DNA of 64,000 nucleotides, taken from Nitrospirales bacterium (GTDB lineage: Bacteria; Nitrospirota; Nitrospiria; Nitrospirales; UBA8639). Below the pieces are notes generated by a model that was not told the origin of the DNA, ran no database searches, and saw only the letters and a program-made list of their open reading frames with translations. Shown here in pieces: positions 22,414-61,681 of the stretch (the first letter of the stretch is position 1; each line of letters starts with the position of its first letter). A program made the translations under genes and the position numbers. The DNA lies in assembly GCA_012270585.1 (NCBI GenBank), contig JAAXIB010000088.1, forward strand, positions 2,419 through 66,418, in the 5' to 3' direction.

Positions 22414-22419
22414 GAATGA

Positions 22420-23637: not shown

Positions 23638-24046
23638 CGGCCATGCTTGGAAAGTTTTTAACTAAACATGCCACCAACACCTCAAAGCCGGCTTCCTTCT
23701 CCTCCATTATTGAAGACGTTCCGACTGTTCTCTGCTGGCCCCATGCCAGGCACATTTCATCGCCGATTTCGTGGCAACGGCGGGAGTAACGAGCGAATGA
23801 CGCATAATATTGATATTGATTATGATACTTAGTTATAAGTATAGCATTCACCAACCCCCTTTGCAATGGTTAACGCACCATAAGTGCCGTGTCACCGATC
23901 CGATCAACGACCCTTGAAAAGTCGATTTTCCTGACCGTCAAGGAATGAACAGCGCACATCTTCCGCATCAATCTTGGTGTCTGTGACTGAGACACATTTG
24001 TCCTATCATTGCCAAAACATTTATTGAAATCAGCTTGGAGGCAACC
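23638..24046. promoter_or_regulatory. Divergent promoter region with Fur-like AT-rich site (23804-23830)
   Basis: This 409-bp gap separates the TPR lipoprotein gene (minus) from a receptor gene (plus). The stretch 23804-23830 contains repeated GATA/GATT hexamers; the 19-mer at 23812-23830 agrees with the Fur consensus at 13 of 19 positions by hand. It could serve either gene. No other gene is seen in the gap. Confidence 0.4.
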
Positions 24047-44393: not shown

Positions 44394-45020
44394 TCACGCC
44401 TTGCCTTCGTCCCCCCATAAAGTGGCCAACCTGGAGTCGCGTCCACAGGTAAAGCGGTACAATTTATACCGGATGGGATTCTTTTGATAAAAATCTTGGT
44501 GATATTCCTCTGCCGGATAAAACGCCGTGGCTTGTGTAATTTCCGTCACGATCGGGGCACTGAAAGTTTTGGTACGTTCGATTTCCTCTTTCGATGCTTC
44601 CGCCAACTGACGCTGTTCATCATTGTGATAGAAAATCGCAGGACGATATTGATCTCCATAATCACAAAACTGTGAATTCGGCGTCGTGGGGTCCGTATTT
44701 GGCCAATAGACGGCCAACAATTCCCGATAGCTGATTTTTTGAGGATCATACTCGACTTGAACGGCCTCGGCGTGTCCGGTTCCCCCGGCAGAAACCTCTT
44801 CGTAGGTCGGATTGACCGTATGGCCACCCGTATATCCCGACGTCGTGGAAATCACTCCATCGAGTTTATCGAACGGGCCTTCCATGCACCAGAAACACCC
44901 CCCTGCAAACGTGGCGATTACATAATCGCCTTTGTTCGTTTCACTGATCGACTGGCTGTTCATACTGACCAGTAGCCCTCCCCCCAGCAGGAGCAAGAGA
45001 AAAAATTTGTAGACTTTCAT
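44394..45020 (-). CDS. msrA: Exported peptide-methionine (S)-S-oxide reductase
   Basis: 208 aa from ATG 45020. A signal peptide (MKVYKFFLLLLLGGGLLVSM) precedes the MsrA domain with the catalytic AGGCFWCMEGPF (Cys42 and Cys45), GYTGGHTVNPTYEEV, GHAEAVQVEYDP and YRPAIFYH. The last residues (FTCGRDSRL) carry a possible resolving Cys. It repairs oxidised methionine, here in the periplasm, so it needs an exported thiol donor; a VKOR-thioredoxin fusion lies 3.5 kb away. Confidence 0.93.
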   Translation of the reverse strand: MKVYKFFLLLLLGGGLLVSMNSQSISETNKGDYVIATFAGGCFWCMEGPFDKLDGVISTTSGYTGGHTVNPTYEEVSAGGTGHAEAVQVEYDPQKISYRELLAVYWPNTDPTTPNSQFCDYGDQYRPAIFYHNDEQRQLAEASKEEIERTKTFSAPIVTEITQATAFYPAEEYHQDFYQKNPIRYKLYRFTCGRDSRLATLWGDEGKA

Positions 45021-45143
45021 GACGGCGACTCCTTTCATTCGCGATACCCAAGACAAGTATCGGGTGCGAGGCACCTTCTTTATTCTACTCTACGTAGAAA
45101 ACAGTATTTCTCAGCATTTCTCTATGTTACACCTCGATCCTAT

Positions 45144-46814
45144 TCAAAGCACGCGTGCGTCGGGTTTTATATAAAACAGCAAAATAAATCCCACCAGCAC
45201 CATCGCCAGCAGCGAAAGAAGGCCTGCGAGACGACCGTGCGGTGCCGGCAACCGGATCTCCAACCAGCGTGCACAGCCCATCAAGACGGCAAGAACGCCA
45301 ATCAAAACGTGTGTGCTTTGAATAAGGAATTCCTGTTTTCGCTCCATCACCCCGTGAGAATGGGTCAACATGATCATGCCGCCCATGATACACAGAAGCG
45401 GAAACACAAATTGGAAAGACTGCCTGCCTGACGATTGCGTTCTCCCCAGCCATTCGGACCAACCTAACCCAAAGACCAGCATCGCAGCGAACCAATGTTG
45501 AACGACCTCGGAATTTTGCAAGCTCGACATAAATCCGATCGAGCCTAACGGCCAATGATCCGGATTGGCAAACACAAAAACCAGCACGGAAAACCCAAGA
45601 AACATGAGCGGCCACAGTCGAGCCCATGTAAACCGTCCCAGTTGCTCAAGCAAGGCCACGAGACCCATAGCGAGGATAATGACACCGGACACATTATGGT
45701 TAAACCGGTCCCAACTCACGTCTTCTTTTTTCCCGATTTCACCGGTCTTGAGGTCGGTCAATTCCGGCGCCTCGATGAGAATCCGTTCCGGACCGCCAAG
45801 GTGCGGATATTTCGGAGCATACATCACCCGGATTTCCGAGAACGTCACGGCTTCCTTGGTCACGTCGACCGATGGCGGAAATCCCGTCAGGGAAACGGCT
45901 GTAAACAGTAAAACCCCTGCAAGAAGAATTTCCACTTCAAGATAAGAGGGAACGCGAGAAAACACACCTGTTCCCGAGGCTTGTTCCCGATCTGATCGGA
46001 GATCGAACCCGGGGTCGTGAGCGTTTCCCTTGGTCTGTTGCCTGGCAGAGAGAAAGTTGACCGTGGCCAAGGCCAGCACACAGACAAACAGCACGATCTT
46101 GACCAGGAGCATGTTGCCGTATCCCGTTCCGATCAATCGCGCCCAACCACCCACATAATGCCACCCGAGAAACACCCCCGACCCAACGATAAACACCACG
46201 CATCCCATCCCCAAAAGAGAGAAACGGGCCACCATGTGGGGCCACCGGCCGGCGTGTCGTTCCCGCATCATCCTCCAGAGCAACACCATGTGGACCACCC
46301 CGCCCGCCCAGACCGTTGCGCCACATACGTGGACCATGGTCGCCACCATTAACGGTTGCCGATTTTCCAACCGGCTGGCCGCATGACTCAGCCACGCTTC
46401 ATTCACCATAAACAACCCGACCATGAGCCATACCATACCCCAAGGAAGTCGCCTGGAAACGTCTCGCCTGACCCTTGCCGCCGACCAGGCCGTGCCCAAG
46501 GCCAGCAGGACCCCCGACGTCCCGAATTTAAATAATCCTGTATGCAGAACGGCCTGCAAACCCAGGGAGCCAAGCGCATCACTCAACGCCAGGGCTTTTA
46601 ACGCTAACTGGAGAATACGCAATCCGGCCATCACACAGAGGCTCAAGACGCTCACCTTTAACAGCGTGTCGCTCGCGGACCGGACCACCGGGTCCTGATC
46701 GTAAATCGGCCGCAGAACCACCAGTGTGCAGGCAAAGCCTCCCAGAGATAACGACAAGGCAACAAGAGCCCCGCCATCGAGCAACCCGCTGATGAATTCA
46801 AGAAACTCCGTCAT
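45144..46814 (-). CDS. copD: CopD-family copper-resistance membrane protein
   Basis: 556 aa with about 13-14 hydrophobic helices. The N-terminal half matches CopD: ALSLSLGGFACTLVVLRPI, LSHAASRLENRQPLMVATMVHVCGATVWAGG with conserved His, and MLLVKIVLFVCVLALATVNF. A periplasmic loop of about 100 residues follows (PPSVDVTKEAVTFSEIRVMY). A second membrane block contains HNVSGVIILAMGLVALLEQLG and MLTHSHGVMERKQEFLIQSTHVLIG, whose His residues could bind copper. It is directly downstream of copC, a usual pair. Confidence 0.85.
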   Translation of the reverse strand: MTEFLEFISGLLDGGALVALSLSLGGFACTLVVLRPIYDQDPVVRSASDTLLKVSVLSLCVMAGLRILQLALKALALSDALGSLGLQAVLHTGLFKFGTSGVLLALGTAWSAARVRRDVSRRLPWGMVWLMVGLFMVNEAWLSHAASRLENRQPLMVATMVHVCGATVWAGGVVHMVLLWRMMRERHAGRWPHMVARFSLLGMGCVVFIVGSGVFLGWHYVGGWARLIGTGYGNMLLVKIVLFVCVLALATVNFLSARQQTKGNAHDPGFDLRSDREQASGTGVFSRVPSYLEVEILLAGVLLFTAVSLTGFPPSVDVTKEAVTFSEIRVMYAPKYPHLGGPERILIEAPELTDLKTGEIGKKEDVSWDRFNHNVSGVIILAMGLVALLEQLGRFTWARLWPLMFLGFSVLVFVFANPDHWPLGSIGFMSSLQNSEVVQHWFAAMLVFGLGWSEWLGRTQSSGRQSFQFVFPLLCIMGGMIMLTHSHGVMERKQEFLIQSTHVLIGVLAVLMGCARWLEIRLPAPHGRLAGLLSLLAMVLVGFILLFYIKPDARVL

Positions 46815-46827
46815 GAAAAGATCTGAC

Positions 46828-47226
46828 TTATCGGGTAATGATGGTAAAGCGAATGGACCCTTCGGTCACATGGCCGTCGATCGCCAATACTTTGTACTGC
46901 ACGTTGTAAACGCCCGGTCGCAGCGGCGGAATTTTGGCCACAACCGTATTCTTCGTCGAAGCGTTCGTCACACCCAATGGAGTGAGGACTTCCTGCAGAT
47001 CGACAAGGTTGACTTGAGCAATGAATGGTTCGAGGATAGCATTAAAATGCAAGACAACCTGGTCGGGACTGGCTCGTAAAACAGACCCGTGCATGGGAAA
47101 AGATTCAACCATGACCCCATGAGACAGAGCCGTCTGAAAAGAAACCAAGCACAGCACGAGGGCACACGGCACAGCAAGCAGGCCGGGACAACGGTTCAGA
47201 AAGGAAACTTTCAACTTCGACGCCAT
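46828..47226 (-). CDS. copC: CopC-family periplasmic copper-binding protein
   Basis: 132 aa. The signal peptide ends at ALS, leaving His36 as mature N-terminus (HGVMVESFP), the usual N-terminal copper-binding His. The Ig-like core has PDQVVLHFNAILEPFIAQV, RPGVYNVQYKVLAIDGHVTEGSIRF with a second conserved His. It delivers copper to CopD or buffers it. It is 13 bases upstream of copD on the minus strand. Confidence 0.92.
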   Translation of the reverse strand: MASKLKVSFLNRCPGLLAVPCALVLCLVSFQTALSHGVMVESFPMHGSVLRASPDQVVLHFNAILEPFIAQVNLVDLQEVLTPLGVTNASTKNTVVAKIPPLRPGVYNVQYKVLAIDGHVTEGSIRFTIITR

Positions 47227-47369
47227 TGAGTGAAAGATGAGCGATGATGCAACGTCCAGGCCAAAGAGTACTCAAGGACAACGTACGATTTCAAGAGAGT
47301 CGGCAACACCGATCAGGATCCCCGGCTCACGCAAGGCTCGGTTGGACAAGCATCCACGAAAGACACGCC

Positions 47370-48377
47370 ATGTTTAGAAGAATCGCGATGTACGTTGCTT
47401 GGGGCACATGCCTGCTCACCCCTTCACTGCTTTTGGCAAACGCATCCGATTTTGCCGAAATTGTCGAGCAAGCCAAGCACGGGACCGTGGGTATTCTTAC
47501 TCAATCGACTTCGCCAGAGGGGAATTCTTTCTCCGTGAGAGGATCAGGAATTTACCTGGGAGACAGGTATATCCTGACCGCCCGTCATGCCACGAAACGC
47601 CCGGGAAGTGGAACAACCGCTGATCCTCAGCACATTTCCGTTATTTCGAGCACGTTCGAAGAAGCGTCTGCCACGTTGGTCGGCGTGAATCGATTTTTGG
47701 ATGTTGCCCTGTATCGCATTCCCCAAGAGATGTTGCCTCACGGGCTCTCTGCCAGGAAGTTCAGCCAGGCTGAGGCCTTGCCGGGAGAACGAGTCTTCAC
47801 CGTAGGGTACCCATTGGGTTGGGGGCCTGTCATCAGCTATGGATACATCGGCAATCCCGATACGTTTTTGCAAACGATTCAATCACGTCTCCTGCAAGTC
47901 GATCTTTCAGCGTGCAGTGGCAATTCCGGCGGAGGGTTGTTCAATACACAAGGAGAAATCACCGGCATTATCCACGCGATCATTCAAACCGAAACGACCC
48001 GGGAGGAACGTCGTTGCAGCCGGTTTGCCTTTGCCGTCCCCGGACCGTTGGTCCACAAGATCGTGACGGCCCTCATAGAGGGGAAGCCTTTTCACTTTTC
48101 AAAACTCGGGCTGCAACTCGACTCCGTCAAAATCGGAACACAATGGCACATGGCCGTAGCTCAAGCAACGGGACCGGCTCGACGGGCAGGCTTCAAGAAA
48201 GGAGACGTGCTTCTGTCCATCGACAACCAGCCGGTCGCCTCGGCGAGCCAATTGAAAACCTATGTGATCGAACAGACACGACCTTTTCAGGCCGTCAGCA
48301 TCCGCATCCTGCGGGATCATAGAGAAAAAGTCATACGAGTGATTCTGGGAAAATCCCTTCCTTCACCTCTTGAGTGA
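47370..48377 (+). CDS. Exported trypsin-like protease with PDZ domain
   Basis: 335 aa from ATG 47370 with a signal peptide (MYVAWGTCLLTPSLLLANA). The HtrA/DegP-like triad is visible: LTARHATK (His), NRFLDVALYRI (Asp) and VDLSACSGNSGGGLF (Ser in GNSGG). The C-terminal 100 residues form a PDZ domain (ARRAGFKKGDVLLSIDNQPVASASQL). It is smaller than DegP (one PDZ). The wider frame starting at 47244 is not signal-like. It is divergent from copC and followed by the VKOR gene. Confidence 0.87.
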   Translation: MFRRIAMYVAWGTCLLTPSLLLANASDFAEIVEQAKHGTVGILTQSTSPEGNSFSVRGSGIYLGDRYILTARHATKRPGSGTTADPQHISVISSTFEEASATLVGVNRFLDVALYRIPQEMLPHGLSARKFSQAEALPGERVFTVGYPLGWGPVISYGYIGNPDTFLQTIQSRLLQVDLSACSGNSGGGLFNTQGEITGIIHAIIQTETTREERRCSRFAFAVPGPLVHKIVTALIEGKPFHFSKLGLQLDSVKIGTQWHMAVAQATGPARRAGFKKGDVLLSIDNQPVASASQLKTYVIEQTRPFQAVSIRILRDHREKVIRVILGKSLPSPLE

Positions 48378-48483
48378 GGGAGATCTTTGCGTCCTCCACA
48401 CGGCAACGAGTATCATGCATTACGTCCCGACGTGATCAAAACGAAAGCATTGCCTCCCGTTTCCATTCGCAAAGGACGTGACA

Positions 48484-49371
48484 ATGGTAAAGCAACGTAA
48501 AAAGCGAAGAACTGCAAATGCCGAAAGCACCGAGCATCTCTCGCATTCTCCTGCGACTCGCGTACCGGCCCCGAATGCCCCGCTCACCATCGTCCTGCTT
48601 GTACTGGTCCTTTTCGGAATTGTGCTGACGACGTACCTCAGTTATACCGCCTCGTTCGAGACGCACCCGGCTTTCTGCGGCGAAGGGTCGGGATGCGATC
48701 TGGTACAAAGCAGTCGCTGGTCGACGTTTCTGGGAATGCCCATGGCCACGTGGGGCCTGTTCACCTATCTGGTGATGGCGGCACTGGCATGGCGAGCCAG
48801 GACAAAACCCGGGAGTTGGACGCTCATGGTATTCGTCGCAGTCGGCGGGTTCGGTGTCAGTGCCTACCTGACCGCGATCTCAATCGTGGAAATCGAAGCG
48901 ACCTGTTCCTACTGTCTCGCTTCATTCGGTACCATCACGGCCATCATGATCCTGACCCTCGTACAGCGACCTCCCGACTGGTCAACGTCGTTGAAAGAAG
49001 CGAGCGTGGTTGCCGTGCTCATCATCGGCGTGCTCCATCTGCATTACAGCGGGGTGTTCGACGAAGCAGCCGGCCCCGAGGATCCGCAACTCCAGGCCTT
49101 GGCCATTCATCTTAATGAAACCGGAGCCAAGTTTTACGGCGCTTATTGGTGCCCCCGCTGCCAGGAGCAGAAAGCCCTGTTCAAAGCATCCGCTGACCGT
49201 CTTCCTTACGTGGAATGCAGCTCCGGGGGGCGCGGCAGCCCCCTTACCGCGCCATGCGTGGCAAACGACATTCGCAGTTACCCGACCTGGATCATCGACG
49301 ACCAACGCTACACCGGCTTACAGACCCCTCGAACACTCGCCGGTGCCGCCGGTTTCGCTTGGAAGGAGTAA
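48484..49371 (+). CDS. Vitamin K epoxide reductase-thioredoxin fusion
   Basis: 295 aa. The N-terminal VKOR domain has four to five helices, the loop cysteines HPAFCGEGSGCDLVQSS, the TFLGMPMATWGLFTYL motif and the active CSYC pair in IEATCSYCLASFG. The C-terminal third is a thioredoxin-like domain with GAYWCPRCQEQKALF and an SYPTWIID cis-Pro segment. Such bacterial fusions oxidise exported proteins to form disulfides using quinone. It lies between the protease and the molybdoenzyme gene. Confidence 0.92.
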   Translation: MVKQRKKRRTANAESTEHLSHSPATRVPAPNAPLTIVLLVLVLFGIVLTTYLSYTASFETHPAFCGEGSGCDLVQSSRWSTFLGMPMATWGLFTYLVMAALAWRARTKPGSWTLMVFVAVGGFGVSAYLTAISIVEIEATCSYCLASFGTITAIMILTLVQRPPDWSTSLKEASVVAVLIIGVLHLHYSGVFDEAAGPEDPQLQALAIHLNETGAKFYGAYWCPRCQEQKALFKASADRLPYVECSSGGRGSPLTAPCVANDIRSYPTWIIDDQRYTGLQTPRTLAGAAGFAWKE

Positions 49372-49442: not shown

Positions 49443-50090
49443 ATGGAATTTAGCCAAAACCCCTTTCAAGCTAAACAGAAAATGGCTCAGCACCGTCGTG
49501 AGATCTCCGGGCGTGAAGTTGACGAAGAATATCAGGATGATCGCCTCCCCCCCGGGCAGCATATCGTCAATAATTGGCCCGTCCTAGACCTTGGATATAA
49601 ACCTCAAATTTCACTTGAAGAATGGAAGCTCACGGTGGATGGGTTGGTTGAGCATCCCATCACGTGGACCTGGAAGGAATATCAGGCTCAGCCACAGCAG
49701 TCGTTTGTGTCCAATTTCCATTGCGTGACCTCGTGGAGCCAGCTTGAAATGAAATGGGTCGGGGTGAGTTTTCGGCATCTACTCGGCTTGGTGTGCCCCA
49801 AGCCGGAAGCCAAATATGTGCTCTTTGAGTCGTATGACGACTATACGACCAACCTACCTCTTTCGGTCTGCGACGACGAGGACGTCTTCCTTGTCCATTC
49901 CTGGAATCACAAACCGCTGTGTAAGGATCACGGAGGACCGGTTCGCATGATTATCCCCAAACGGTATGCATGGAAGGGAGCCAAGTGGGTCAGAACCATC
50001 ACCTTCGTGGAAAAAGATCAAAAAGGGTTCTGGGAAGTGCGCGGGTATTCGAACACCGCCTTGCCGTGGGAAAATGATCGCTATGGGTGA
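49443..50090 (+). CDS. Sulfite-oxidase-fold molybdopterin protein, cytoplasmic
   Basis: 215 aa with no signal peptide. The Mo-binding domain is recognised by the PVLDLGYKPQISLEEWKLTVDG start, SNFHCVTSWSQLEMKWVGVS with the putative Mo-ligand Cys94, HGGPVRMIIPKRYAWKGAKW and VRGYSNTALPW. It corresponds to the YuiH-like subgroup lacking the C-terminal dimerisation domain. Substrate unknown. A second sulfite-oxidase-fold gene with a Tat signal lies at 59156. Confidence 0.87.
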   Translation: MEFSQNPFQAKQKMAQHRREISGREVDEEYQDDRLPPGQHIVNNWPVLDLGYKPQISLEEWKLTVDGLVEHPITWTWKEYQAQPQQSFVSNFHCVTSWSQLEMKWVGVSFRHLLGLVCPKPEAKYVLFESYDDYTTNLPLSVCDDEDVFLVHSWNHKPLCKDHGGPVRMIIPKRYAWKGAKWVRTITFVEKDQKGFWEVRGYSNTALPWENDRYG

Positions 50091-50154: not shown

Positions 50155-51264
50155 ATGAGCGCCGCAGCTTTTACCATCACACACATTGAACTCTGCCCAC
50201 TGGATCTTCCCCTCACCGATCCCTTTGTCGTCGCAACGGGCCAACTCCAGGTGGCGCAAAATGCCTTCGTGCGACTCACCCTGCATGATGGAACCATCGG
50301 ATACGGCGAGATTGCACCATTTCCCGCCATGACCGGGGAAGATCGCGAGAGCAGTCTGAAGAAAGCTCGAATATTGGGAAAACACCTTCTTGGACAATCG
50401 ACTCTTCATTATCAACGACTCAGCCACGAACTGTCCGAACGCGCCCCAGACGCTCCCTCGGCTCGATGTGGATTGGAAACCGCCTTACTCGATGCCTTGA
50501 CGCGCGCAATTCACGTCCCCCTGTGGGCCTTGTGGGGTGGAGCGGACGTTCGCGCGCGTGAAACGGACGTCACCATTCCCATCGCTTCTTTGGAGCGAAC
50601 CCGGGAACTCGCTCGACAATGGTATGAACGAGGCTTTCGTCTCTTCAAAATAAAAGTAGGCCACGACGTGGACGATGATATTCGCCGGTTGGAAGCCCTT
50701 CATCGTCATTGTGCCGGCGTGGCGTTTGTGATCGATTCCAATCAAGGATACACGCGCGAGGAGGCCGCTACTTTGCTACAAGGTGTCAAGCGGTCTGGCG
50801 GCACGATCATCCTCCTTGAACAACCGCTGGCCAAGGATGATCTTGAAGGTCACGCCAAACTCCGCCGCGATTTCCACGTTCCCGTTGCCGTGGACGAATC
50901 GGCACAATCACTGCGCGACCTCCAAGCCGTTATTCAGCACCGTGCGGCGGACTACGTCAATATCAAAATTACCAAAAGCGGCGTTCTGGACGGGCTCATC
51001 ATGGCAACCGTGGCGAAAGCCGCCGGTCTTCGCGTGATGCTGGGCGGGATGGTGGAAACCAGGGTAGCCATGGGATGTTCCTACAGCCTTGCCATGGGCC
51101 TCGGCGGCTGTCCGGTTCTGGATCTCGACATGCCTTTGTTGCTGGAAACCGATCCGATTGATGGCGGGTATACGTATGAAGGCCCACTGCTTCAACCGTG
51201 GTACGGGCCAGGACTCGACTTCGATATCCCTTCCTTTCAGGCCTCCACATCCGACCGCCTTTAA
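50155..51264 (+). CDS. Enolase-superfamily dipeptide epimerase-like protein
   Basis: 369 aa, muconate-lactonizing subgroup. Catalytic positions are clear: FKIKVG (Lys165, Lys167), VIDSNQGY (Asp194), LLEQPL (Glu221), VAVDES (Asp246, Glu247) and VNIKITKSG (Lys270, Lys273). These two lysine motifs and three acidic ligands match L-Ala-D/L-Glu epimerase-type enzymes of murein peptide recycling; o-succinylbenzoate synthase is the main alternative. The start is ATG 50155. Confidence 0.85.
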   Translation: MSAAAFTITHIELCPLDLPLTDPFVVATGQLQVAQNAFVRLTLHDGTIGYGEIAPFPAMTGEDRESSLKKARILGKHLLGQSTLHYQRLSHELSERAPDAPSARCGLETALLDALTRAIHVPLWALWGGADVRARETDVTIPIASLERTRELARQWYERGFRLFKIKVGHDVDDDIRRLEALHRHCAGVAFVIDSNQGYTREEAATLLQGVKRSGGTIILLEQPLAKDDLEGHAKLRRDFHVPVAVDESAQSLRDLQAVIQHRAADYVNIKITKSGVLDGLIMATVAKAAGLRVMLGGMVETRVAMGCSYSLAMGLGGCPVLDLDMPLLLETDPIDGGYTYEGPLLQPWYGPGLDFDIPSFQASTSDRL

Positions 51265-51536
51265 AACGGAAATGTGCAGATCACTTCCTGTCGCAGCGGC
51301 ATCCTTGCTCCAAGCAGGGAGGCCACCCTCTGCATGCAATGGCTTAGGGTGTGGGGTCACAAGAGGACAACTCCTTCATTCAGGATGAGTATGGTGTGAT
51401 TCGTTCAACAGCCACGGTATCGTTCTCCCATCGCTTGGGATGGGGAAAATCGAGCGATGACCATCCCTTTCCGAACACTTGCATGGCTTGATGTAAGTTA
51501 GATATTATTTTGTTCTTTCTGTGCTTGGAGTCAGCG
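51265..51536. other. Intergenic region, no gene seen
   Basis: 272 bases between the epimerase and the TetR gene. The last 30 bases (TTAGATATTATTTTG) are AT-rich and may be the TetR promoter. No operator palindrome was found by eye. Confidence 0.4.
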
Positions 51537-52204
51537 ATGCCGAGAAGAAAACAATTTGGCGTTGATGATGTTATGCAGAAGGCGATGGTGGCCTTCTGGG
51601 ACCATGGCTATAGGGCGACATCCTTACAGGAACTCGTGGAATGCATGGGTATCAACCGAGCCAGTCTTTATGCCACGTTCGGTGACAAGTATTCTCTCTT
51701 CATCGATACCTTACAGAGCTACAGGCGCACCTACCTCAACCCCTTCTTCGCGGAAAAAATGAAGGCGTATTCGCCCCGCCAAGCCATCTGCGGCTTATTC
51801 GAGGAGATCAGTGAACGGGTTTGAAGGGTGAGGAACGAAACGGGTGTTTTATGATCAATACGGCCCTGGAGTTATCGCCGCATGACGAGAAGGTGGAGAA
51901 GATCGTCCGTCAGACCTTTGTCCAAATCGAAAAAAATTTCTTCCGCAAAATGATCGAACAGGGTCAGACCAGCGGAGAAATTTCCAGGTCAGTGGTTCCG
52001 AGCACGACCGCACGAGCCTTGCTGAGTTTGTTCATCGGGTTGCGGGTGCTTTCCCGCAGCCGTCGCGAGAAAGCTTTGCTGCAGTCGATTACGAACCAGG
52101 TGGAAGCGCTTTTACCCCCTGTGGATCATGCCACCCTTCCCGATCCCATCTCCGTCAAGCGCCATGGTCGCAAAGTCCATGCCAACGTCACTTATGTAGG
52201 ATGA
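51537..52204 (+). pseudogene. TetR-family regulator with one frameshift
   Basis: From ATG 51537 the product starts MPRRKQFGVDDVMQKAMVAFW with the HTH YRATSLQELVECMGINRASLYATFG. The frame stops at TGA 51822-51824 just after LFEEISERV. The rest of the ligand-binding domain (LKGEERNGCFMINTALELS onward to TGA 52202-52204) is open in the next frame from 51821. A missing T in the TTT run near 51818-51822 would restore one 222-aa protein. No classical slippery heptamer in the right phase is seen, so mutation or a sequencing indel is more likely than programmed shifting. Confidence 0.85.
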
Positions 52205-52879: not shown

Positions 52880-54433
52880 ATGATCCGGATTCCCGTACAG
52901 CGAACACCACGGCGTCTTTTCATCCTTCTTCTGTTCTGCATATTCTGTTTTCCTTCCGCTTCTCAAGGAACAGACCTTGCATCCTTCGAGCAGAAGGTCA
53001 CGGAATACACCGTCAAAAACGGCTGGACTTTTATTCTCGTCGAACGACCCGTAGCCCCGGTTTTTGCTTTTATGACGGCGGTGAACGTGGGATCGGCACA
53101 AGAAGACACGGGCAGGACCGGGCTCGCGCACATGTTCGAACACATGGCCTTTAAAGGTACGCCCCGGCTCGGTACCAGGAACTACAAAGAAGAGCAAAAA
53201 GCCCTGGAGGAGTTGGAACGGGCTTATCAGGCTTATCAGGAAGCCAGGTTGAATTCCGCGTCCGATGCCCAACACGTCGAACACTTGCTGAACATCTATA
53301 AACGCAAGCAAGAAGCCGCCGCGACGTTCGTGAAAAAGAACGAGTTCTCCGACGTGGTTGAGCGGGAAGGCGGGGTTGCCGTCAACGCCTTTACCGGCGC
53401 CGACGTGACCGGCTATTTCTACGCGCTTCCCGCCAACAAGATCGAACTCTTCTGTTATCTGGAATCGGAACGGTTTTTACACCCGGTGTTTCGTGAGTTC
53501 TACGAGGAACGGGACGTAGTCATGGAGGAGCGTCGGATGCGTACGGAAAGCCGGCCTATCGGCCGGCTCCTTGAACAATTCGTGGTCACGGCCTTTACGG
53601 CTCACCCTTATCACCATCCGGTGATCGGCTATGCCAGTGACATTCAATCCTATACCATGACCGATGCCAAACAATTTTTTGAAACCTATTACGTCCCATC
53701 CAACATGGTCACGGCGATTGTCGGAGACATTCACCCGGAGACCCTCATTCCCCTGCTCGAAACGTATTTCGGCCGGATCCCCGGCGGGCCGAAACCTCCG
53801 CCCTTGAGAACCGTAGAACCCCCGTCGATCGCGGAAAAAGTGGTGACCATTAAAGAGTCGGCTCAACCTTTTTATCTGGAAGGGTACCACAAACCGGCAG
53901 CCACGCATCCCGATCAACCCGTGTTCGACGCCATCGACGACATTTTGACGAACGGACGGACCTCCCGGTTTTACCGCTCGCTGGTCCGGGACAAACAAAT
54001 CGCAGTCGACGCCGGAGCTTATGGGGCGTACCCGGGTGAAAAATATCCGCATCTATGGGTGGCATATGCGGTCCCCGCGCGAGGAGTCTCCAATGAAACC
54101 GTTCAGCAAGCCATCCGCGAAGAATTGGAGCGACTGAAAACCGAAGACGTTACGGACGAGGAGTTGACCAAATTCCGGACGAGAGCCAAAGCCAGCCTGA
54201 TCTATTCCTTGAAAAGCAACCTCGGGTTGGCCATGAGCCTGACGAACTACCATACCCTCTTTGGTGATTGGCGCGAACTGTTTCGCTATATTCAACGCTT
54301 TGACCGGGTGACGAAAGCAGACATCCGGCGGATCGCCAGGCAAACGTTTGTTGCATCCAATCGGGTCGTGGCACAAATAGAAACCATCCCCACGACTGCT
54401 TCTCCCAGACCAACCGCACCCCAAGGATCATGA
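52880..54433 (+). CDS. M16 zinc metallopeptidase, catalytic subunit
   Basis: 517 aa with a signal peptide (RRLFILLLFCIFCFPSASQG). The inverted zinc motif HMFEH (His84, Glu87, His88) is present in GLAHMFEHMAFKG, and the third ligand Glu follows in VVMEERRMR. A coiled insertion (about residues 100-155) separates the motif from the rest of the catalytic domain, as in other bacterial M16B proteins. A second M16 domain follows. It degrades peptides in the periplasm, probably as a heterodimer with the product of the next gene, which starts one base later. Confidence 0.92.
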   Translation: MIRIPVQRTPRRLFILLLFCIFCFPSASQGTDLASFEQKVTEYTVKNGWTFILVERPVAPVFAFMTAVNVGSAQEDTGRTGLAHMFEHMAFKGTPRLGTRNYKEEQKALEELERAYQAYQEARLNSASDAQHVEHLLNIYKRKQEAAATFVKKNEFSDVVEREGGVAVNAFTGADVTGYFYALPANKIELFCYLESERFLHPVFREFYEERDVVMEERRMRTESRPIGRLLEQFVVTAFTAHPYHHPVIGYASDIQSYTMTDAKQFFETYYVPSNMVTAIVGDIHPETLIPLLETYFGRIPGGPKPPPLRTVEPPSIAEKVVTIKESAQPFYLEGYHKPAATHPDQPVFDAIDDILTNGRTSRFYRSLVRDKQIAVDAGAYGAYPGEKYPHLWVAYAVPARGVSNETVQQAIREELERLKTEDVTDEELTKFRTRAKASLIYSLKSNLGLAMSLTNYHTLFGDWRELFRYIQRFDRVTKADIRRIARQTFVASNRVVAQIETIPTTASPRPTAPQGS

Positions 54434-54434
54434 C

Positions 54435-55907
54435 GTGAGAGAAGCCGCGTTTCGATATCTCCGGCAAACGTCACGACGTTCGCTGCCATGCGTGATCACG
54501 TGTGCCGTGATCGTTCTTTTACTGACCACGCCGGTGCTCGGTCAGGTGGACACGGTTGAGCAACTGACGTATCCCCCCCTGCCGGATATTCACATTCCTC
54601 AACCGACTCGGGTCGTCCTGGACAACGGCATGGTGGTGTTTCTCCTGGAAGATCACGAACTCCCAACCATCCACGTTTCTGCGCGCATCAAGACCGGCTC
54701 CCGCCTGGAACCGGCAGACAAGGTGGGGCTGGCCGCGCTCACGGGGACCGTCATGCGAAGCGGAGGCACGACGACACGCACCGGCGACCAACTGGATGAC
54801 TACCTGGAAAGCAAGGCTGCCTCCATTGAAACCGGCATCGGCGTCACAGCGGGTTCAGCCTCGATGACGTGCTTGAGCGAAGACTTTTCCGAGGTCTTTA
54901 CGGTCTTCGTCGACGTCCTGCGAAACCCGCGATTCGATCCGGGGAAACTGGCCATCGCTAAAAACAAGGTCATGGCGGGTATCGCCAGGCAAAATGACAA
55001 TCCCGACGGCATCCTGTCCAGGGAGTTTGCGAAGTTGGTGTATGGCAAGGCCTCACCCTATGCGAGGGTCGAGTCTTATGCCACCATCAACAAGATTTCC
55101 CGGCAGGATCTCATCAATTGGCATGCGAAATATTTTGTCCCCAATCGTATCATCCTGGGCCTGGCCGGGGATTTTCAAACGAAGCAGGCGTTGGACTTGG
55201 TGAAACGCACGTTCGGAACGTGGCCACACGGAGAAACATTCGACGATCCGATCGTCCCGTACCAGGCCTCTACCACAAGAAAAGTCTTTTACGTGGAAAA
55301 AGCCGACATGACCCAAGCTCAGATCGTCATCGGACATTTGGGGCTCACGCGAAAACACCCGGACTACCATCCGGTGGTCATTATCAACCAGATCGTAGCC
55401 GGTTCTTTTGGGGCCCGGCTCTTTTCCAACATCCGCTCCAAAAAAGGGTTGGCCTATGACGTGGGTGGTGGGATCGGATTCGGGTGGGACTATCCGGCAA
55501 CCGCCAGTTTTTCAATGTCTACCAAAACGGACACCACGCAAGCAGGCATTGACGCCTTGCTGGAGGAAGCCCGGAAAATCATGGAAACGGAACCCCCTAC
55601 TGAGGAGGAAGTCCACAAGGCCAAAGCCAGTCTCTTGAATTCTTTTGTCTTTTCCGTCGATTCTCCCGGGAAAATCCTCGGGAAATTTCTCACTTATGAA
55701 TATTTCGGATATCCTTCCGATTGGCTTGTCCGCTTCAGAGCGGGCATTGAGAACGCGACCGTGGAGCAGGTACGGAAAGCGGCTCGCACGCACATCAAAC
55801 CGGACCAATTCGTGTTCCTGATTATCGGGCCCCGTCAAGGCACGGCGCCGGCCCTGGCGCGATACGAAATGGTTGAAGAACTCGACATTTCCATACCGGA
55901 ATCGTAA
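54435..55907 (+). CDS. M16 peptidase-like protein, non-catalytic subunit
   Basis: 490 aa from GTG 54435, one base after the stop of the catalytic M16 gene. A signal peptide (VITCAVIVLLLTTPVLGQ) precedes tandem M16 domains. The position of HxxEH is replaced by KVGLAALTGTVMRSGG, so the zinc site is lost. The second domain has the usual substrate-binding features (GSFGARLFSNIRSKKGLAYDV with conserved Arg and Tyr). Catalytic and non-catalytic M16 pairs form heterodimers, as expected here. Confidence 0.9.
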   Translation: MREAAFRYLRQTSRRSLPCVITCAVIVLLLTTPVLGQVDTVEQLTYPPLPDIHIPQPTRVVLDNGMVVFLLEDHELPTIHVSARIKTGSRLEPADKVGLAALTGTVMRSGGTTTRTGDQLDDYLESKAASIETGIGVTAGSASMTCLSEDFSEVFTVFVDVLRNPRFDPGKLAIAKNKVMAGIARQNDNPDGILSREFAKLVYGKASPYARVESYATINKISRQDLINWHAKYFVPNRIILGLAGDFQTKQALDLVKRTFGTWPHGETFDDPIVPYQASTTRKVFYVEKADMTQAQIVIGHLGLTRKHPDYHPVVIINQIVAGSFGARLFSNIRSKKGLAYDVGGGIGFGWDYPATASFSMSTKTDTTQAGIDALLEEARKIMETEPPTEEEVHKAKASLLNSFVFSVDSPGKILGKFLTYEYFGYPSDWLVRFRAGIENATVEQVRKAARTHIKPDQFVFLIIGPRQGTAPALARYEMVEELDISIPES

Positions 55908-55957
55908 TAATAAAAGTCGGTATAATAAGACAAGCCCGGTCGGGCAAAGAGAAACTG

Positions 55958-56797
55958 ATGCACTTCCGAAATTCAGTCAAACACGTGATCCAAACTTTTG
56001 CCCTGTGTCTTGTCCTCATCACCGTGGCGGGATGTGCGACAAACCCGTACACGAACAGATCGCAGTTTCTGCTGATCCCGGAAAGCCAGGAAGTTCACAT
56101 GGGCAACCAGGCCTACGCCCAGGCCCTCAATGATCCAAACGTCGTCATCTCCAAAAACCCGGCTGAAGTGGAACCCGTGGAGCGCGTGGCCGAACGGATC
56201 ATTGCCGTGGCCAAGAAATCCAAATACGCCGAACGCGCAAAGTCGTTTCAATGGGAAGTCACGGTGATCAAGGATGACAAGACCAAAAATGCCTGGGCCC
56301 TGCCCGGCGGCAAAATCGCCTTCTACACGGGCATTTTCCCTGAGGCGAAAAACGAAAACGGATTGGCGGCGATCATGGGCCATGAAGTGGTTCACGCCTT
56401 AGCCCGGCACGGTGCCGAACGGGTCAGCCAGCATACGGCGGCTAATTTGGGAATGCAGGTCGCCATAGCGGCTTTTGACCTGAAACCTCTCACTCAAACA
56501 TTGGCCATGCAGGCGTTGGGGATAGGCGTCTTATTGCCCTTCAGTCGAAGCCATGAATCGGAAGCGGACTACATCGGGTTACTCCTCGCCGCCGAGGCCG
56601 GATACGACCCCAGAGAAGCCGTGCTTCTGTGGAAACGCATGGCGGAATCTTCCAAAGGTTCCCCCCCGGAATTTCTGTCAACCCACCCTACTCATGAGAC
56701 ACGCATTGAAAACCTTCAAAAATGGATGCCCGAGGCCGTGGCGCGGTACGAACGCGCCGCAAAAGCACCCGTCTCCACCCTTCCCTCTATCGAGTAA
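55958..56797 (+). CDS. M48-family metalloprotease lipoprotein
   Basis: 279 aa. The lipobox VAGC at residue 26 predicts a lipid anchor. The zinc motif GHEVVHALARH has His142, Glu143 and His146, and the third ligand lies in SRSHESEADYIGLLL. This is the Oma1/LoiP/YcaL-like type of envelope quality-control protease. It follows the two M16 genes by 50 bases. Confidence 0.92.
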   Translation: MHFRNSVKHVIQTFALCLVLITVAGCATNPYTNRSQFLLIPESQEVHMGNQAYAQALNDPNVVISKNPAEVEPVERVAERIIAVAKKSKYAERAKSFQWEVTVIKDDKTKNAWALPGGKIAFYTGIFPEAKNENGLAAIMGHEVVHALARHGAERVSQHTAANLGMQVAIAAFDLKPLTQTLAMQALGIGVLLPFSRSHESEADYIGLLLAAEAGYDPREAVLLWKRMAESSKGSPPEFLSTHPTHETRIENLQKWMPEAVARYERAAKAPVSTLPSIE

Positions 56798-56843
56798 AGC
56801 TGTTCAGGTCTCGTATAAGTCGATACAGTATGAAGGATTATCG

Positions 56844-57788
56844 ATGGCTGAGGTGACACGTCGTTCGATTGCAGCGGTTTTCATGATGGTTGTCCTGCTC
56901 CCGAACACGGATGCCGGCGCTTCCGAGATAATTGCTCGCCAGGGATTCTATTTCGGCGCGGACATAGGGGTTTCCGTCCCAAACGAGCTCGAGTCCACCC
57001 GCACAAATAACGGCATTCCGACAAACTGCGACCAATGGTTGGAAAGAGACACGTTGAATGACGGCACGACGGTCCCGCTTCCCTTGGAACAATGTTCACC
57101 CAGGACCCTGCCCGGCCGTCCGAACAGTTTTGATCTTGGCACGGGTTTTCTGACCGGGATAAACCTCGGCTATGCCTTGCATGACCTTCGTCTTGAAGCC
57201 GAATACTTTCGTCGCGAGCAAAGCGGTGCACGTTCAGCACTCAACGTTCCCGGAGATCCCAAACAGGCGGAATTTGTCGAGCGAAGCGAAAAAATCAATG
57301 ATTTTCGTGCCGATAACTTCTTCGCAAACGTCTACTACGATTTTCACGACATGCTATCACCAAGAGTGACTCCCTACCTGGGCGTCGGGTTAGGAGTCAT
57401 GCGCGTACAAATGGATTATTCGGGAACCTCCATCCGAACAAACAACCGAGAAACACTTCACACATTGGGGCGAAATCGCAACGCGGCAGGCCTGGCCTCG
57501 TTAGCCGACGAAGTGCTGTCCGACACGTTGTTCGGGTACCAATGGATAGCCGGCATGGATTACGCATGGAGTGAACGATTTTCAATAGGGTTGAAATTCC
57601 GCTACGGAGGTTCCTTTGACGATTTCGAGGACGGCGATAATGCCTGGAAACCATTGAGAGGTCACGAATCCACGGTCGGGCCAACCCCGGCGACAGGAGC
57701 AAATCTGCCCGTTCGTTACGCCATTCAAGCCGATGATTTCAACTTCTGGGGAATTTCATTGAATCTCAAGTACTTTTTTAACATGTAA
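56844..57788 (+). CDS. Outer-membrane beta-barrel protein
   Basis: 314 aa from ATG 56844. A signal peptide ends near NTDAGASE. Alternating strands follow (GFYFGADIGVSVP, LTGINLGYALHDLRLEAEYF, VTPYLGVGLGVMRVQM, YQWIAGMDYAWSERFSIGLKFRYGG). The last strand ends in Phe then Asn-Met (LNLKYFFNM), close to the usual terminal aromatic signal. It resembles OmpA-like/porin-like barrels; cargo unknown. The frame is open upstream to 56553 only as an antisense-like overlap with the M48 gene. Confidence 0.8.
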   Translation: MAEVTRRSIAAVFMMVVLLPNTDAGASEIIARQGFYFGADIGVSVPNELESTRTNNGIPTNCDQWLERDTLNDGTTVPLPLEQCSPRTLPGRPNSFDLGTGFLTGINLGYALHDLRLEAEYFRREQSGARSALNVPGDPKQAEFVERSEKINDFRADNFFANVYYDFHDMLSPRVTPYLGVGLGVMRVQMDYSGTSIRTNNRETLHTLGRNRNAAGLASLADEVLSDTLFGYQWIAGMDYAWSERFSIGLKFRYGGSFDDFEDGDNAWKPLRGHESTVGPTPATGANLPVRYAIQADDFNFWGISLNLKYFFNM

Positions 57789-57969
57789 AGCCACTCCACA
57801 GAATCCGTACTTCTTGAGAGAAATCATCCACCCCCCGTTTCGCATCGTGTATCGGCGAGACGCAAACGCCGTGCGGATTGTGCGTACATGGCGCAATGAA
57901 CGTCCGCTTCGGCTGACGGAACACCCCTTCTCAACCAACCACTCGTGTGATAGGGTGGCGGAACGTTCC

Positions 57970-59016
57970 ATGCCAAATTACGAATCCACGTTGACACGCT
58001 TCCCATCAATTCTCGTTTTCTGTCTGATCCTCTCGGCTTGCGGGGGAAGCGGTGAACCGGTCGTCGAGATTGCCTTGCACCCGACCAAACCCGACCTGCT
58101 CTATATCGCCACGAACGATTACATCTATAAAACACGCGATTCAGGCAAAACCTGGACAAACGTTTCAAAAGGCATGACGCATTCGCGGGTGATTTCGCTT
58201 GCGGTTGATCCCCTGCTTCCCGCCAACGTGTACGCCGGCACCAAGGGCGATGCGATCTTTAAAAGCTTTAACGGCGGCCACCAGTGGATATCGCAACGCA
58301 AGGGGTTGGAAGGCGTGACCATTACCTCAGTGGTGCATGAAATCAAATTCGTTCCGGGATCGAGCCAACATATTTTTGCCGCAACGTCGATGGGGGTCTT
58401 CGAAACGGAAAATGCCGGAGAAACGTGGGCCAAACGCATGGAAGGCATGATCGAAGTCCTCATGGTCGTTACCATCGACGTGGATCCCAACCAGCCGCAG
58501 ACCCTGTATGCCGGCACCAGCGGGGGAGTCTATCGATCGCTCGACGGAGCCAAAACCTGGATAAAGGTCAACAACGGCCTGGTGCCACCCGACGTACTAA
58601 AATCGTCCCGCGCCCTCGGGGTGGTCAAAATCAAGATCGACCGGCATGCTCCCCATACCGTGTATACCGCCACGTTGAAAGGACTCTATAAAACCACCGA
58701 TGGCGGGGAGTCATGGCAACGTATCGGTGAATCACTCCCCGACCAATTTTTCAGCGATCTCATTCTCGATCCGATGACCCCGGGAGTCGTTTTTGTGGCC
58801 AGTCGGGCCGGAGTCCATACAAGCCGGGACGGCGGCCAAACCTGGGATGCGGTCAATGAGGGGTTGACCAATCTCAACATTCGAGCCTTAGTCATCAGTC
58901 CGACGGATCCTTCGACCTTGTACGTCGGCACCAATCGAGCCGGCCTTTTCCGGACGAACAACGGAGGCCGGTTATGGGAACCCGTTCCATTGACCCCTGC
59001 CCCCCAGAGCCCATGA
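57970..59016 (+). CDS. Ycf48-like beta-propeller lipoprotein
   Basis: 348 aa from ATG 57970. Lipobox LSACG lies within FPSILVFCLILSACGG. Six or seven BNR/Asp-box-like repeats follow, each with the GG-x-W pattern: TRDSGKTWTNVS, SFNGGHQWISQR, ENAGETWAKRM, SLDGAKTWIKV, TTDGGESWQRIG, SRDGGQTWDAVN, TNNGGRLWEPVP. This is the sortilin/Ycf48/HCF136-like seven-bladed propeller. Such proteins serve as assembly factors or glycoside-binding modules; the role here is unknown. Confidence 0.85.
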   Translation: MPNYESTLTRFPSILVFCLILSACGGSGEPVVEIALHPTKPDLLYIATNDYIYKTRDSGKTWTNVSKGMTHSRVISLAVDPLLPANVYAGTKGDAIFKSFNGGHQWISQRKGLEGVTITSVVHEIKFVPGSSQHIFAATSMGVFETENAGETWAKRMEGMIEVLMVVTIDVDPNQPQTLYAGTSGGVYRSLDGAKTWIKVNNGLVPPDVLKSSRALGVVKIKIDRHAPHTVYTATLKGLYKTTDGGESWQRIGESLPDQFFSDLILDPMTPGVVFVASRAGVHTSRDGGQTWDAVNEGLTNLNIRALVISPTDPSTLYVGTNRAGLFRTNNGGRLWEPVPLTPAPQSP

Positions 59017-59155
59017 GCAGGTGCCATGAAGCAAATCTCTGAACCGGAGCGAAGAGGATCTCCCTGCTACGATGGCCTCTCTTGCAGAGGGTCCGGCACT
59101 GTATTATAGTAATTGCAAGGGAACGACGATCCTCAAATACGTACCCGCCGTAATC

Positions 59156-60166
59156 ATGGACATCACCCGTCGCAAATTGTTTCAATTAAGCGGTCTGGGA
59201 ACCCTGGCAGGTCTAGGCAGCCTCACCGGCGGGTGCGACCTCGGCAGCATGTTTGCCGTCCCTCCCCGCGAAACACGGTATTTCACGCCCAATGACAAAT
59301 TTTATACCGTCAATTATATGGACTCTCCGTACAACTTCACGCGCGATCTTGACCAGGAACAATGGCAAATGGTGGTCAAGGGCGCAGTCAGCAACCCCAT
59401 GGTACTCAGGTGGCGGGACGTCCTGAATCGCAAACCGTTCGACCAGGTTTCCACACTCATATGTATCGATACCCTTCCGGGGGGGACGAGTCTGGGCAAT
59501 GCAATTTGGCGAGGGATTTCTCTGAAAGAGTTGCTCATCGAAGCCGGAGCCGATCCTGAAACCGCACGGGACGTCATTTTTCGAGGAGCCGACGCCTATC
59601 ATGACAGCATCCCCTTTGAACGGGCCATGCACGATGAAGTGATGTTGGCCTATCTCATGAACGGAGAAAAACTCCCGAAGGCCCATGGATTTCCGCTCCG
59701 TCTGATCGTACCCGGGTTATACGGCATCAAGAACGTCAAATGGATTACGGAAATCGAAGTGTATAACGGAGACTATCAGGGGTATTGGCAACGCAAAGGA
59801 TGGACCGACGAGGGGACGATCCATATTTTTTCCCGCATCGACAGTCCCGGACATTATCAGGACCTCCGCGGACCCCACGTTCAGTTCCGCGGCGTTGCAT
59901 TCGGCGGACCCAACTCCATCGCCCATGTGCATCTGAGTTTCGACCAGGAGAAAACCTGGAGCGAAGCCACCATCGAACCACCTCAATCCCCTTGGTCCTG
60001 GGTGATCTGGAACTATCAACGGGACGACATGCCGGACGGCAAGAGCATGGTCTCCGTTCGTGCCATCGATACCACCGGCACCGTGCAAACCTCGACAATC
60101 ACCCGTCCCCAACCCAACGGCGCCACGGGCCTGCACAGCATCGTGGTGAACGTACGCAACGCCTAG
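59156..60166 (+). CDS. Tat-exported sulfite-oxidase-fold molybdopterin protein
   Basis: 336 aa from ATG 59156. The N-terminus has a twin-arginine motif (TRRKLFQLSGLGTLAG) and a GGC at residue 27 that might be lipidated. The Mo-binding domain is recognisable (WQMVVKGAVSNPMVLRWRDVL, QVSTLICIDTLPGGTSLGNAIWRG with putative ligand Cys103, HGFPLRLIVPGLYGIKNVKWIT). The C-terminal dimerisation domain is present (VQFRGVAFGGPNSIAHVHLSFD). It is in the sulfite oxidase/YedY superfamily. Substrate unknown; sulfite or methionine sulfoxide are candidates. Confidence 0.88.
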   Translation: MDITRRKLFQLSGLGTLAGLGSLTGGCDLGSMFAVPPRETRYFTPNDKFYTVNYMDSPYNFTRDLDQEQWQMVVKGAVSNPMVLRWRDVLNRKPFDQVSTLICIDTLPGGTSLGNAIWRGISLKELLIEAGADPETARDVIFRGADAYHDSIPFERAMHDEVMLAYLMNGEKLPKAHGFPLRLIVPGLYGIKNVKWITEIEVYNGDYQGYWQRKGWTDEGTIHIFSRIDSPGHYQDLRGPHVQFRGVAFGGPNSIAHVHLSFDQEKTWSEATIEPPQSPWSWVIWNYQRDDMPDGKSMVSVRAIDTTGTVQTSTITRPQPNGATGLHSIVVNVRNA

Positions 60167-60298: not shown

Positions 60299-60390
60299 CT
60301 GTCATCCTCGACGGCTTTAATCGAGGATCCAGGTCTTTGCCCGTTGCCTTCTGTCTCCCTCTCCCCCTGGGAGAGGGTTGGGGATGAGGG
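60299..60390. repeat. REP-like repeat plus CCCTCTCCC hairpin
   Basis: 60299-60332 (CTGTCATCCTCGAC...GTCGAGG-type palindrome ending GGATCCAG) is the reverse complement of the 27611 unit at 32 of 34 bases. 60357-60377 is the CCCTCTCCC/GGGAGAGGG hairpin, followed by TTGGGGATGAGGG. The ATG inside that last string is the best start codon of the methylase gene. Confidence 0.85.
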
Positions 60391-61246
60391 AGGGATTCAA
60401 ACTGAGACACTACGAATACGGTGGCGTAGAAATATTCGTGGGCGACAGTCGAGACATCCTCCCACAACTTGAAACCCGTTCGGTTCAATGTTGCGTGACT
60501 TCGCCACCATATTGGGGATTGCGAGACTACGATCATTCAGCACAGATAGGCGCTGAATCCTCTCCTGAAGCATACGTGGAGAACCTCGTGGAGATTTTCC
60601 GCGAAGTTCGAAGAGTACTGGCTGATGATGGCACGTTTTGGCTGAACATCGGTGACGGATACGCCCGCAACGGCGGAACCGGGAATTGTGGCCCCAATGC
60701 ACAGGTTGGCAACACCAAGAAATTGATTCAAAGACGCAACTGTACTGTACCCGATTGTTGGGGACTGAAAGACCGCGATCTGATGGGATTGCCGTGGCGA
60801 GTGGCGTTTGCGCTGCAAGCAGATGGGTGGTTGCTGCGTTCGAAGATCACTTGGGTAAAGAAAGCTCCCATGCCGGAGAGCGTCAGAAATCGTCCCTCAA
60901 ACGCAACCGAAGAGGTTTTCCTTTTCTCGAAAACTCCAAATTACCATTACGACAATCAAGCCGTCCGCGAGGAAACCGGTGCCAATCTCAAGAATTATTG
61001 GTTATTGGGACCCGATTCCAGTGGCACGCCCCATCCCGCCGTTTTCCCAAAAGAATTGGCAAGGCGCTGCATCCTCTTGAGCACTCGTCCCGGAGATTTG
61101 GTCCTTGACCCGTTTTCCGGTTCTGGAACAACTGGCTTGGTGGCTGTGGAACTGCGATTCTTATTGAACTGAACGAAGAATACGTGACACACTCAAAAAC
61201 ACGGTTCGATAACGTCGTACAACAAGCCCTTCCCATCTGGTCATAG
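60384..61246 (+). pseudogene. Type II DNA methyltransferase (SPPY type) with 3' frameshift
   Basis: From ATG 60384 the product shows motif IV TSPPYWGLRDYDH, VRRVLADDGTFWLNIGDGY, LPWRVAFALQADGWLLRSKITW and late motif I LDPFSGSGTTGLVAVE, the motif order of N4-cytosine (or beta-class adenine) methylases. The frame ends prematurely at TGA 61170-61172. The normal ending continues in another frame: GCGTAILIELNEEYVTHSK, to TAG 61244-61246. So one indel near 61136-61144 truncates the last 25-30 residues. The next gene resembles a restriction endonuclease. Confidence 0.82.
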
Positions 61247-61270
61247 CTACTTGCTTCTCGACTTGTGCCC

Positions 61271-61681
61271 ATGAAAACACTCGCGGAATTGCGGCGAAGC
61301 TATCACTACAAAATCGGCTCACAGATCGTTCGAATTTCCAAAAAAGATGGACAATCCTATCCTAATTTCGCTGACGGCAGCAGCCAATCCAGCGTTCTTA
61401 TTGCAAATGGTATCGCAAAGGAACTTGGACTTTCCACCAGGAAAAGCCCAAGCATTACGGGACAAACGGCAGGCACACTATTCGAAAAACTCACCTGCGA
61501 GTTTATAGAGGACGCGTTCACGGCTATCAGACATTTGCGTCCCGGTCGATCTCGCCATTTGACGCGCTCAATCTGCAACCGACTGATTTCGTCACGAGCA
61601 CACGACTGCAATCGTCTCTCTCTGAAGCGACTTGGGCAAATCCAATTCCGAACCCGGTCCGCGCCAGCTACACTGGATTAG
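61271..61681 (+). pseudogene. NgoMIV-like restriction endonuclease, N-terminal fragment
   Basis: 137 aa from ATG 61271. The first 95 residues (MKTLAELRRSYHYKIGSQ, NFADGSSQSSVLIANGIAKEL, ITGQTAGTLFEKLTCEFIED, AFTAIRHLRPG) align from memory with the N-terminus of NgoMIV (GCCGGC-specific). After LRPG the expected catalytic part (about 190 residues) is missing and the sequence runs abruptly into the 3' end of aspS. The enzyme is therefore broken. Together with the frameshifted methylase it forms a decayed R-M system. Confidence 0.65.

Follow-up and report, generated by a model that had tools for sequence, protein, structure and literature searches.

An envelope protease block conserved in the Nitrospirales family UBA8639, and the probable loss of a UBact-proteasome module beside it

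Six co-directional genes encoding exported proteins lie together in a 64 000-nucleotide stretch (hereafter the window) of a 2.5-Mb Nitrospirales metagenome-assembled genome (MAG; assembly GCA_012270585.1, contig JAAXIB010000088.1). They encode two M16 peptidase subunits (M16A, M16B), an M48 metallopeptidase lipoprotein, a putative outer-membrane barrel, a propeller lipoprotein and a molybdoprotein exported by twin-arginine translocation (Tat), which we label MOPT. An earlier note had proposed that the six form one system that assembles or quality-controls a redox complex. All six open reading frames (ORFs) are present, each with a Pfam match, and, as that note suspected, a literature search that included the genome papers on sponge Nitrospirales turned up no described system of this composition (subscription papers lay outside its scope). 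Our comparisons point to a different unit: a real, bounded, family-wide block of known protein families in a group of nitrite oxidisers, [SUOX-fold – epimerase]-M16A-M16B-M48-propeller, which the earlier note had extended to a barrel insertion and to MOPT. We favour, at slightly better than even odds (about 0.55), a reading in which this block serves envelope proteolysis and MOPT became its neighbour through deletion of a second ClpX (ClpX2) and a UBact-proteasome module. If so, the six-gene oddity becomes an envelope protease block with clear borders, testable in cultured lineage IV Nitrospira, and an example of a deletion creating a convincing but accidental functional cluster. Its tie to the repeated absence of the little-studied UBact-proteasome may be new to specialists.

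To judge from the propeller matches, the source genome is of the sponge-associated ‘bin75’ type, in family UBA8639, lineage IV. The closest sequences in a propeller-profile scan were from Nitrospirales MAGs at 82–92% identity (including bin75, SB0677_bin_15, SB0662_bin_26, CO36405bin_1 and MEX2-MAG12), followed by NPIRA and OFTM MAGs and then by Nitrospira proper, including Ca. N. defluvii. On the same matches we equate our genus g1 with bin75 and our family f1 with UBA8639. A passage of one genomic study assigns sponge nitrite oxidisers to the GTDB genus bin75, lineage IVb (PMC11812461), and a passage of another equates lineage IV with family UBA8639 and describes IVb as mostly sponge-derived, with smaller genomes (PMC12342949).

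Conservation and borders of the block

We compared 41 related genomes, 25 from the family (14 of genus g1 and 11 of genera g2–g10) and 16 from other families of the order. M16A, M16B, M48 and the propeller are contiguous, allowing for the barrel between them, in 19 of the 25 family genomes (G000–G006, G008, G010, G011, G013–G017, G019, G021, G023 and G024). Insertions of ~3.3 kb and ~7.6 kb separate M48 from the propeller in G009 and G012, respectively, and contig ends interrupt the block in G018. It is broken in three genomes: G007 lacks the propeller and keeps the rest, G020 has M16A at a contig end and no clear propeller orthologue (a split 47% match only), and G022 keeps the M16 pair, with no M48 beside it and with its propeller elsewhere. 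Outside the family, the best matches of M16A, M48 and the propeller were near each other in none of the 16 genomes. At the loci examined in these genomes, the M16 genes form a solitary pair, in many cases next to a phosphatase-like gene, M48 sits in another place amid housekeeping genes, and CstA and YajQ-type genes precede the propeller in N. defluvii. Among 80 named propeller loci, M48 lies ≤ 5 kb upstream in 31 and does not in 38 (these include L073, whose upstream part was displaced by the G012 insertion), while 11 have too little upstream DNA.

The borders of the block are seen most clearly within the family but outside the genus, where testable cases kept the M16A–M16B junction in 10 of 10, M16B–M48 in nine of 10 and M48–propeller in eight of nine. 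On the upstream flank, the junction between a VKOR-domain gene and SUOX, a sulfite-oxidase-fold gene, was found at all eight genus loci with coverage and at none of the 10 family loci from other genera. Because the internal junctions are held outside the genus and this flank is not, the block is more than a chance adjacency. Its conserved upstream partners are two genes outside the earlier six: SUOX, upstream of M16A at eight of the 10 other-genus family loci with coverage, and Epim, an epimerase-like gene between SUOX and M16A at six of 10 (Table 1). The region just upstream (44394–49371 of the window) encodes, besides the VKOR-domain protein, a DegP-like PDZ protease and an MsrA that carries an export signal. 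This arrangement was seen in the genus only; although so limited, these genes fit a theme of envelope proteolysis. A TetR-type regulator, split over two frames here and in one frame in genus relatives, occupies positions 51510–52204.

Table 1. Features of the protease block and its neighbours, in window coordinates.
Feature	Position	Strand	Evidence and remarks
SUOX, sulfite-oxidase-fold protein without signal peptide (read as cytosolic)	49443..50090	+	Oxidored_molyb 2.1e-39; conserved upstream partner
Epim, L-Ala-D/L-Glu epimerase-like enolase-superfamily protein	50155..51264	+	NCBIfam A_G_epim_Thtga 235 bits (below cut-off of 500)
M16A, exported M16 peptidase, catalytic subunit	52880..54433	+	Pfam; HMFEH motif; best solved match 3amj_C
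M16B, exported M16 subunit without HxxEH, with R..Y loop	54435..55907	+	Pfam; alignment; best solved match 3amj_B
M48 metallopeptidase lipoprotein (HEVVH)	55958..56797	+	Peptidase_M48 8.1e-36; alignment
Putative small outer-membrane barrel, insertion limited to genus	56844..57788	+	OMP_b-brl 2.3e-7 (weak)
Seven-bladed propeller lipoprotein	57970..59016 (start 57970 or GTG 57955)	+	Cys in 18/18 rows; AlphaFold2 model; fold matches
Intergenic junction, read as deletion scar; relatives carry ClpX2 and UBact-proteasome module here	59017..59155	.	Orders in G021, G017, G018; UBact presence
MOPT, Tat-exported sulfite-oxidase-fold protein, possible Tat lipoprotein	59156..60166	+	Oxidored_molyb 2.2e-42; beside AspRS-RluB-GuaA-GuaB in relatives

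Conservation of the full six-gene order, which the earlier note had put forward as a check, is restricted to the genus. Independent placement in relatives, which it had named as grounds for refutation, was found within the family for the barrel and MOPT, and outside the family for all four core genes, except that the M16 genes stay paired.

It is possible, though we consider it doubtful, that the block is a stable neighbourhood only, in which the M16 pair, M48 and the propeller share a promoter while doing unrelated housekeeping. Each core gene does have relatives throughout the order in separate places, and G007 has kept the rest of the block without the propeller. Against this, the order is kept across genera at about 60–80% protein identity while the flanks change, and, of the four products, all except the propeller are exported metallopeptidase subunits.

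Proteins of the block and their predicted roles

Pfam M16 and M16_C domains were matched in both M16 proteins, which, as the earlier note had recognized, pair a catalytic with a dead subunit. M16A carries HMFEH at residues 84–88 and ERDVVMEE from residue 210, while the sequence and alignment of M16B hold neither HxxEH nor the downstream Glu region. The M16B loop IRSKKGLAYDV keeps an R/Y pair whose Tyr is Val in M16A (five of five pairs aligned). Sections of a recent study deal with the role of this pair in the partner subunit of M16 heterodimers, and describe these heterodimers as digesting peptides inside a closed chamber (PMC12731061). The best solved relatives of the two proteins are the active (for M16A) and inactive (for M16B) halves of one enzyme, the SPH2681/SPH2682 heterodimer of Sphingomonas sp. 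A1 (PDB 3amj), which is likewise encoded by adjacent genes, one for an HxxEH subunit and the other for a subunit with the R..Y loop in place of that motif. The pair described here, a predicted heterodimer, differs in its linked M48 and propeller genes. In M16A, the spacing from HxxEH to the third zinc ligand is also longer by ~46 residues than the 80 residues of SPH2681; the added segment looks helical and is encoded at about 53180–53330 of the window.

The M48 protein is, as proposed, a lipoprotein protease, with a PF01435 match and, in the alignment, a lipobox and HEVVH; the lipobox Cys is absent in one row (L025), and the lipobox assignments of both this protein and the propeller rest on alignments. 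Its best NCBIfam models were BepA (94.9 bits, cut-off 570) and LoiP (43.5 bits, cut-off 365), both short of their cut-offs. Like these two it has an exported M48 domain with HExxH, but at 279 residues, with PF01435 the only domain found, it lacks the C-terminal TPR half of BepA. BepA is the nearest studied M48 protein, and is described in parts of two papers as maturing or degrading LptD (PMC8423444; PMC7950410).

The propeller protein gave a BNR/sortilin-type Pfam match and an AlphaFold2 model with seven blades (predicted local distance difference test, pLDDT, 88; predicted template modelling score 0.85), and its lipoprotein Cys is invariant, all in keeping with the seven-bladed propeller lipoprotein first described. 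The relationship to Ycf48, an assembly factor of photosystem II, survives as a distant fold likeness: both are seven-bladed BNR-type propeller lipoproteins, but the NCBIfam Ycf48 model scored 45 bits against a cut-off of 326, and in a Foldseek search 3b7f and GH74 propellers led, ahead of Ycf48 (5ojr, 1.5e-13) and DAIP (7.6e-13). A second structure comparison was also led by GH74 propellers, with 3b7f at rank 10. On these scores and fold ranks we rejected the reading as a Ycf48 homologue with an assembly role. A DAIP-like protease binder was considered as well; DAIP (6fhp, 5fzp) is about as close as Ycf48, too weak a likeness to choose by, and a literature search on this reading returned nothing useful.

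Between M48 and the propeller, the barrel gene occurs at nine of the 13 loci in the genus, broken into pieces in G004, is absent from the genus members G002, G008, G009 and G010, and was found at none of the other family loci compared. Its identification as an outer-membrane barrel draws on the Pfam match in Table 1; the structural model has eight long strands, but with a pLDDT of 46.6 is too poor to prove a barrel.

We suggest that M16A and M16B would close as a clamshell and digest short peptides, that the M48 lipoprotein would, like BepA and LoiP, cleave envelope proteins that have misfolded or been wrongly assembled, and that the propeller lipoprotein could be an adaptor or have a regulatory role. 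A possible task of the epimerase is the recycling of wall dipeptides. The likely function of the block, presumably co-transcribed and with products that may form a complex, would be to turn over faulty envelope proteins and the peptides derived from them.

The propeller–MOPT junction and the UBact-proteasome module

The relative G021 carries the order SUOX-Epim-M16A-M16B-M48-propeller-ClpX2-RRM-Mpa-Dop-ORF-UBact-PrcB-PrcA-PafA-five ORFs (including an RND pump)-SDR-MOPT-AspRS, on one strand except for a few small reversed ORFs, SDR and AspRS, with 20.2 kb between propeller and MOPT. Two further genomes of its genus (G134, G156) share the right-hand part of this order. Shorter arrangements are propeller-ClpX2-SDR-MOPT in G017, propeller-ClpX2-MOPT in G018 and propeller-MOPT in g1. 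Since the two flanks of the junction in our window equal both flanks of the module in G021, a deletion is its simplest account. We therefore read the junction as best explained by a deletion scar, the only trace of the module in this genus, and MOPT as having probably become the propeller's neighbour through loss of the whole intervening module together with ClpX2.

The distribution of UBact (PF20513) accords with these orders: it is present in all nine genomes of g2, g3, g4, g7, g8, g9 and g10 and in none of the 16 of g1, g5 and g6. PF03136 was matched twice in g1, g5 and g6 (once in G012 and G013) as against four times in the others, except for G022 with two, whose genome is 78% complete. 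The Dop/PafA pair and the 20S subunits of the module are represented in L042/L203 by two matches each to PF03136 and PF00227, together with OB domains of a proteasomal ATPase, and PF20513 was matched in L205, L208 and G021. In family genomes with a second Dop/PafA set, other than G014, MOPT either immediately follows that set or comes a few genes after it. In 11 g1 genomes the propeller and MOPT are separated by 100–487 bp; the gap is wider in G018 (1.7 kb), G004 (2.5 kb) and G017 (2.8 kb). Absence of UBact matches propeller–MOPT adjacency completely: the two genes are < 3 kb apart in 14 of 14 testable UBact-free genomes (G007, without a propeller, and G011, at a contig edge, fall outside this count) and in none of the eight with UBact and a propeller orthologue, counts that follow genomes and not independent events. 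In those eight, MOPT is 20 kb away (G021), on another contig or hundreds of kilobases off.

A tree of M16A and MOPT from 30 genomes places g7, which keeps the UBact set beside MOPT, as sister to g1 (Shimodaira–Hasegawa-like approximate likelihood ratio support 100), and its well-supported branches force three changes of UBact presence. The direction of change was plausibly loss. Several points weigh against the account we favour. The deep order of the tree was unstable between two quick runs, with g5 basal in one and g6 in the other, and an original propeller-ClpX2-MOPT order with one UBact insertion and two losses costs the same as three losses; g1 would have lost the module under both scenarios. 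In addition, Epim is missing in several family genomes (in the genus, G002 has VKOR and no Epim match), and relatives of all four core proteins occur in 41 of 41 genomes, so that co-loss provides no signal of a shared function.

It might further be speculated that in the UBA8639 ancestor the block, ClpX2 and a UBact-type proteasome made up one proteolysis island, closed by MOPT, which dealt with damaged proteins on either side of the inner membrane, and that its cytosolic half was later lost, and its envelope half retained, in the sponge-associated lineage and two others; we regard this as unlikely. We give still less credence to a shared role for envelope proteases, ClpX2 and UBact-proteasome as members of a single proteolysis island, whose envelope half would be what the window contains. 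Propeller, ClpX2 and proteasome genes do stand in series in G021, L086, L088 and L103, but g4 and g7 keep both halves apart, and f3 (L213, L214, L216) has the UBact set without an adjoining protease block.

Two Dop/PafA-proteasome sets occur in family genomes outside g1, g5 and g6 (G022 being incomplete), in six of six sampled f3 genomes and in some of f4. One is of the UBact type, and the other (kept in g1; L217, G000:C47) is ~28–41% alike; no GGE/GGQ-tailed small protein was found near the latter. ClpX2 (L042:6443–7723 and equivalents), which follows the propeller in several other family genera, is a ClpX-like unfoldase and has a weak match to a C4 zinc finger. UBact is named, without elaboration, in a passage of PMC11354881, and a passage of PMC3511204 reports pupylation genes in Nitrospirae.

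MOPT and other features of the window

The Tat-exported sulfite-oxidase-fold protein of the earlier note stands, with its start most likely at the position in Table 1 (MDITRRK...), a correction. A Cys follows the Tat helix in 28 of 30 aligned rows, so MOPT may be a Tat lipoprotein. The next residue is Asp, which in the Lol rule of E. coli leads to inner-membrane retention; by that rule MOPT would be held in the inner membrane, unlike M48 and the propeller. With SorA/SoxC sulfite dehydrogenases and MsrP it shares the molybdopterin fold, the Tat signal and the Mo-ligand Cys (Cys103, 30/30 rows), and with SorA a dimerisation domain. What we take to be the sulfite-site residues of SorA (Arg55, His57 and Arg109 in SorA numbering) are not retained: MOPT has Val52 (30/30) and Tyr/Phe54 (25/5) at the Arg55/His57 places, and its CIDTLP stretch contains no Arg. 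MOPT scores far below the NCBIfam cut-offs of every named subfamily; that of MsrP (207 bits) was missed by both MOPT (60.5) and SUOX (74.7).

The older neighbourhood of MOPT is AspRS-RluB-GuaA-GuaB, found at f1 loci and at most f2 loci examined. Nothing points to redox-complex assembly, and on the placement of MOPT and of the barrel we rejected one six-gene redox-assembly system. That such a system exists, completed by the genus through the addition of these two genes, is very improbable. The six genes do share a strand, with short gaps (1, 50, 46, about 170 and 139 bp, in order) in which no terminator-like match was found on the + strand (11 such matches observed against 9.4 expected, both strands), and all 12 genus genomes in which this could be tested have propeller and MOPT side by side. 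However, MOPT keeps its AspRS neighbourhood in f2 and where the protease block lies elsewhere (G015, G016, G019, G022, G023, G024), four genus members do without the barrel, and the Asp after the MOPT Cys would place it away from M48 and the propeller.

Two further ideas about MOPT were set aside. A tie to nitrite oxidation was rejected on its distribution: among 146 genomes drawn from the class, 128 have MOPT relatives (E ≤ 1e-60), and these extend to other families of the class. EB_dh, an NxrC-type family, gave matches in 40 of the 41 related genomes and could not tell them apart. The second idea, gene fusion, arose from long open frames that surround MOPT in some genomes of the class; the one examined was a run of N, and no inference was drawn.

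Elsewhere in the window, positions 1–4000 have a G+C content of about 73%, as against about 54% in the rest, and could be a chimeric contig end or a foreign island. Several TonB-dependent-receptor-like ORFs, read from translations without a family search, lie at 10372–26454, one of them apparently broken around 13111–14818. Downstream of MOPT, at 60378–61681, a DNA methyltransferase gene is followed by a short fragment (138 aa) of an NgoMIV-type restriction enzyme, of which a relative has a longer copy.

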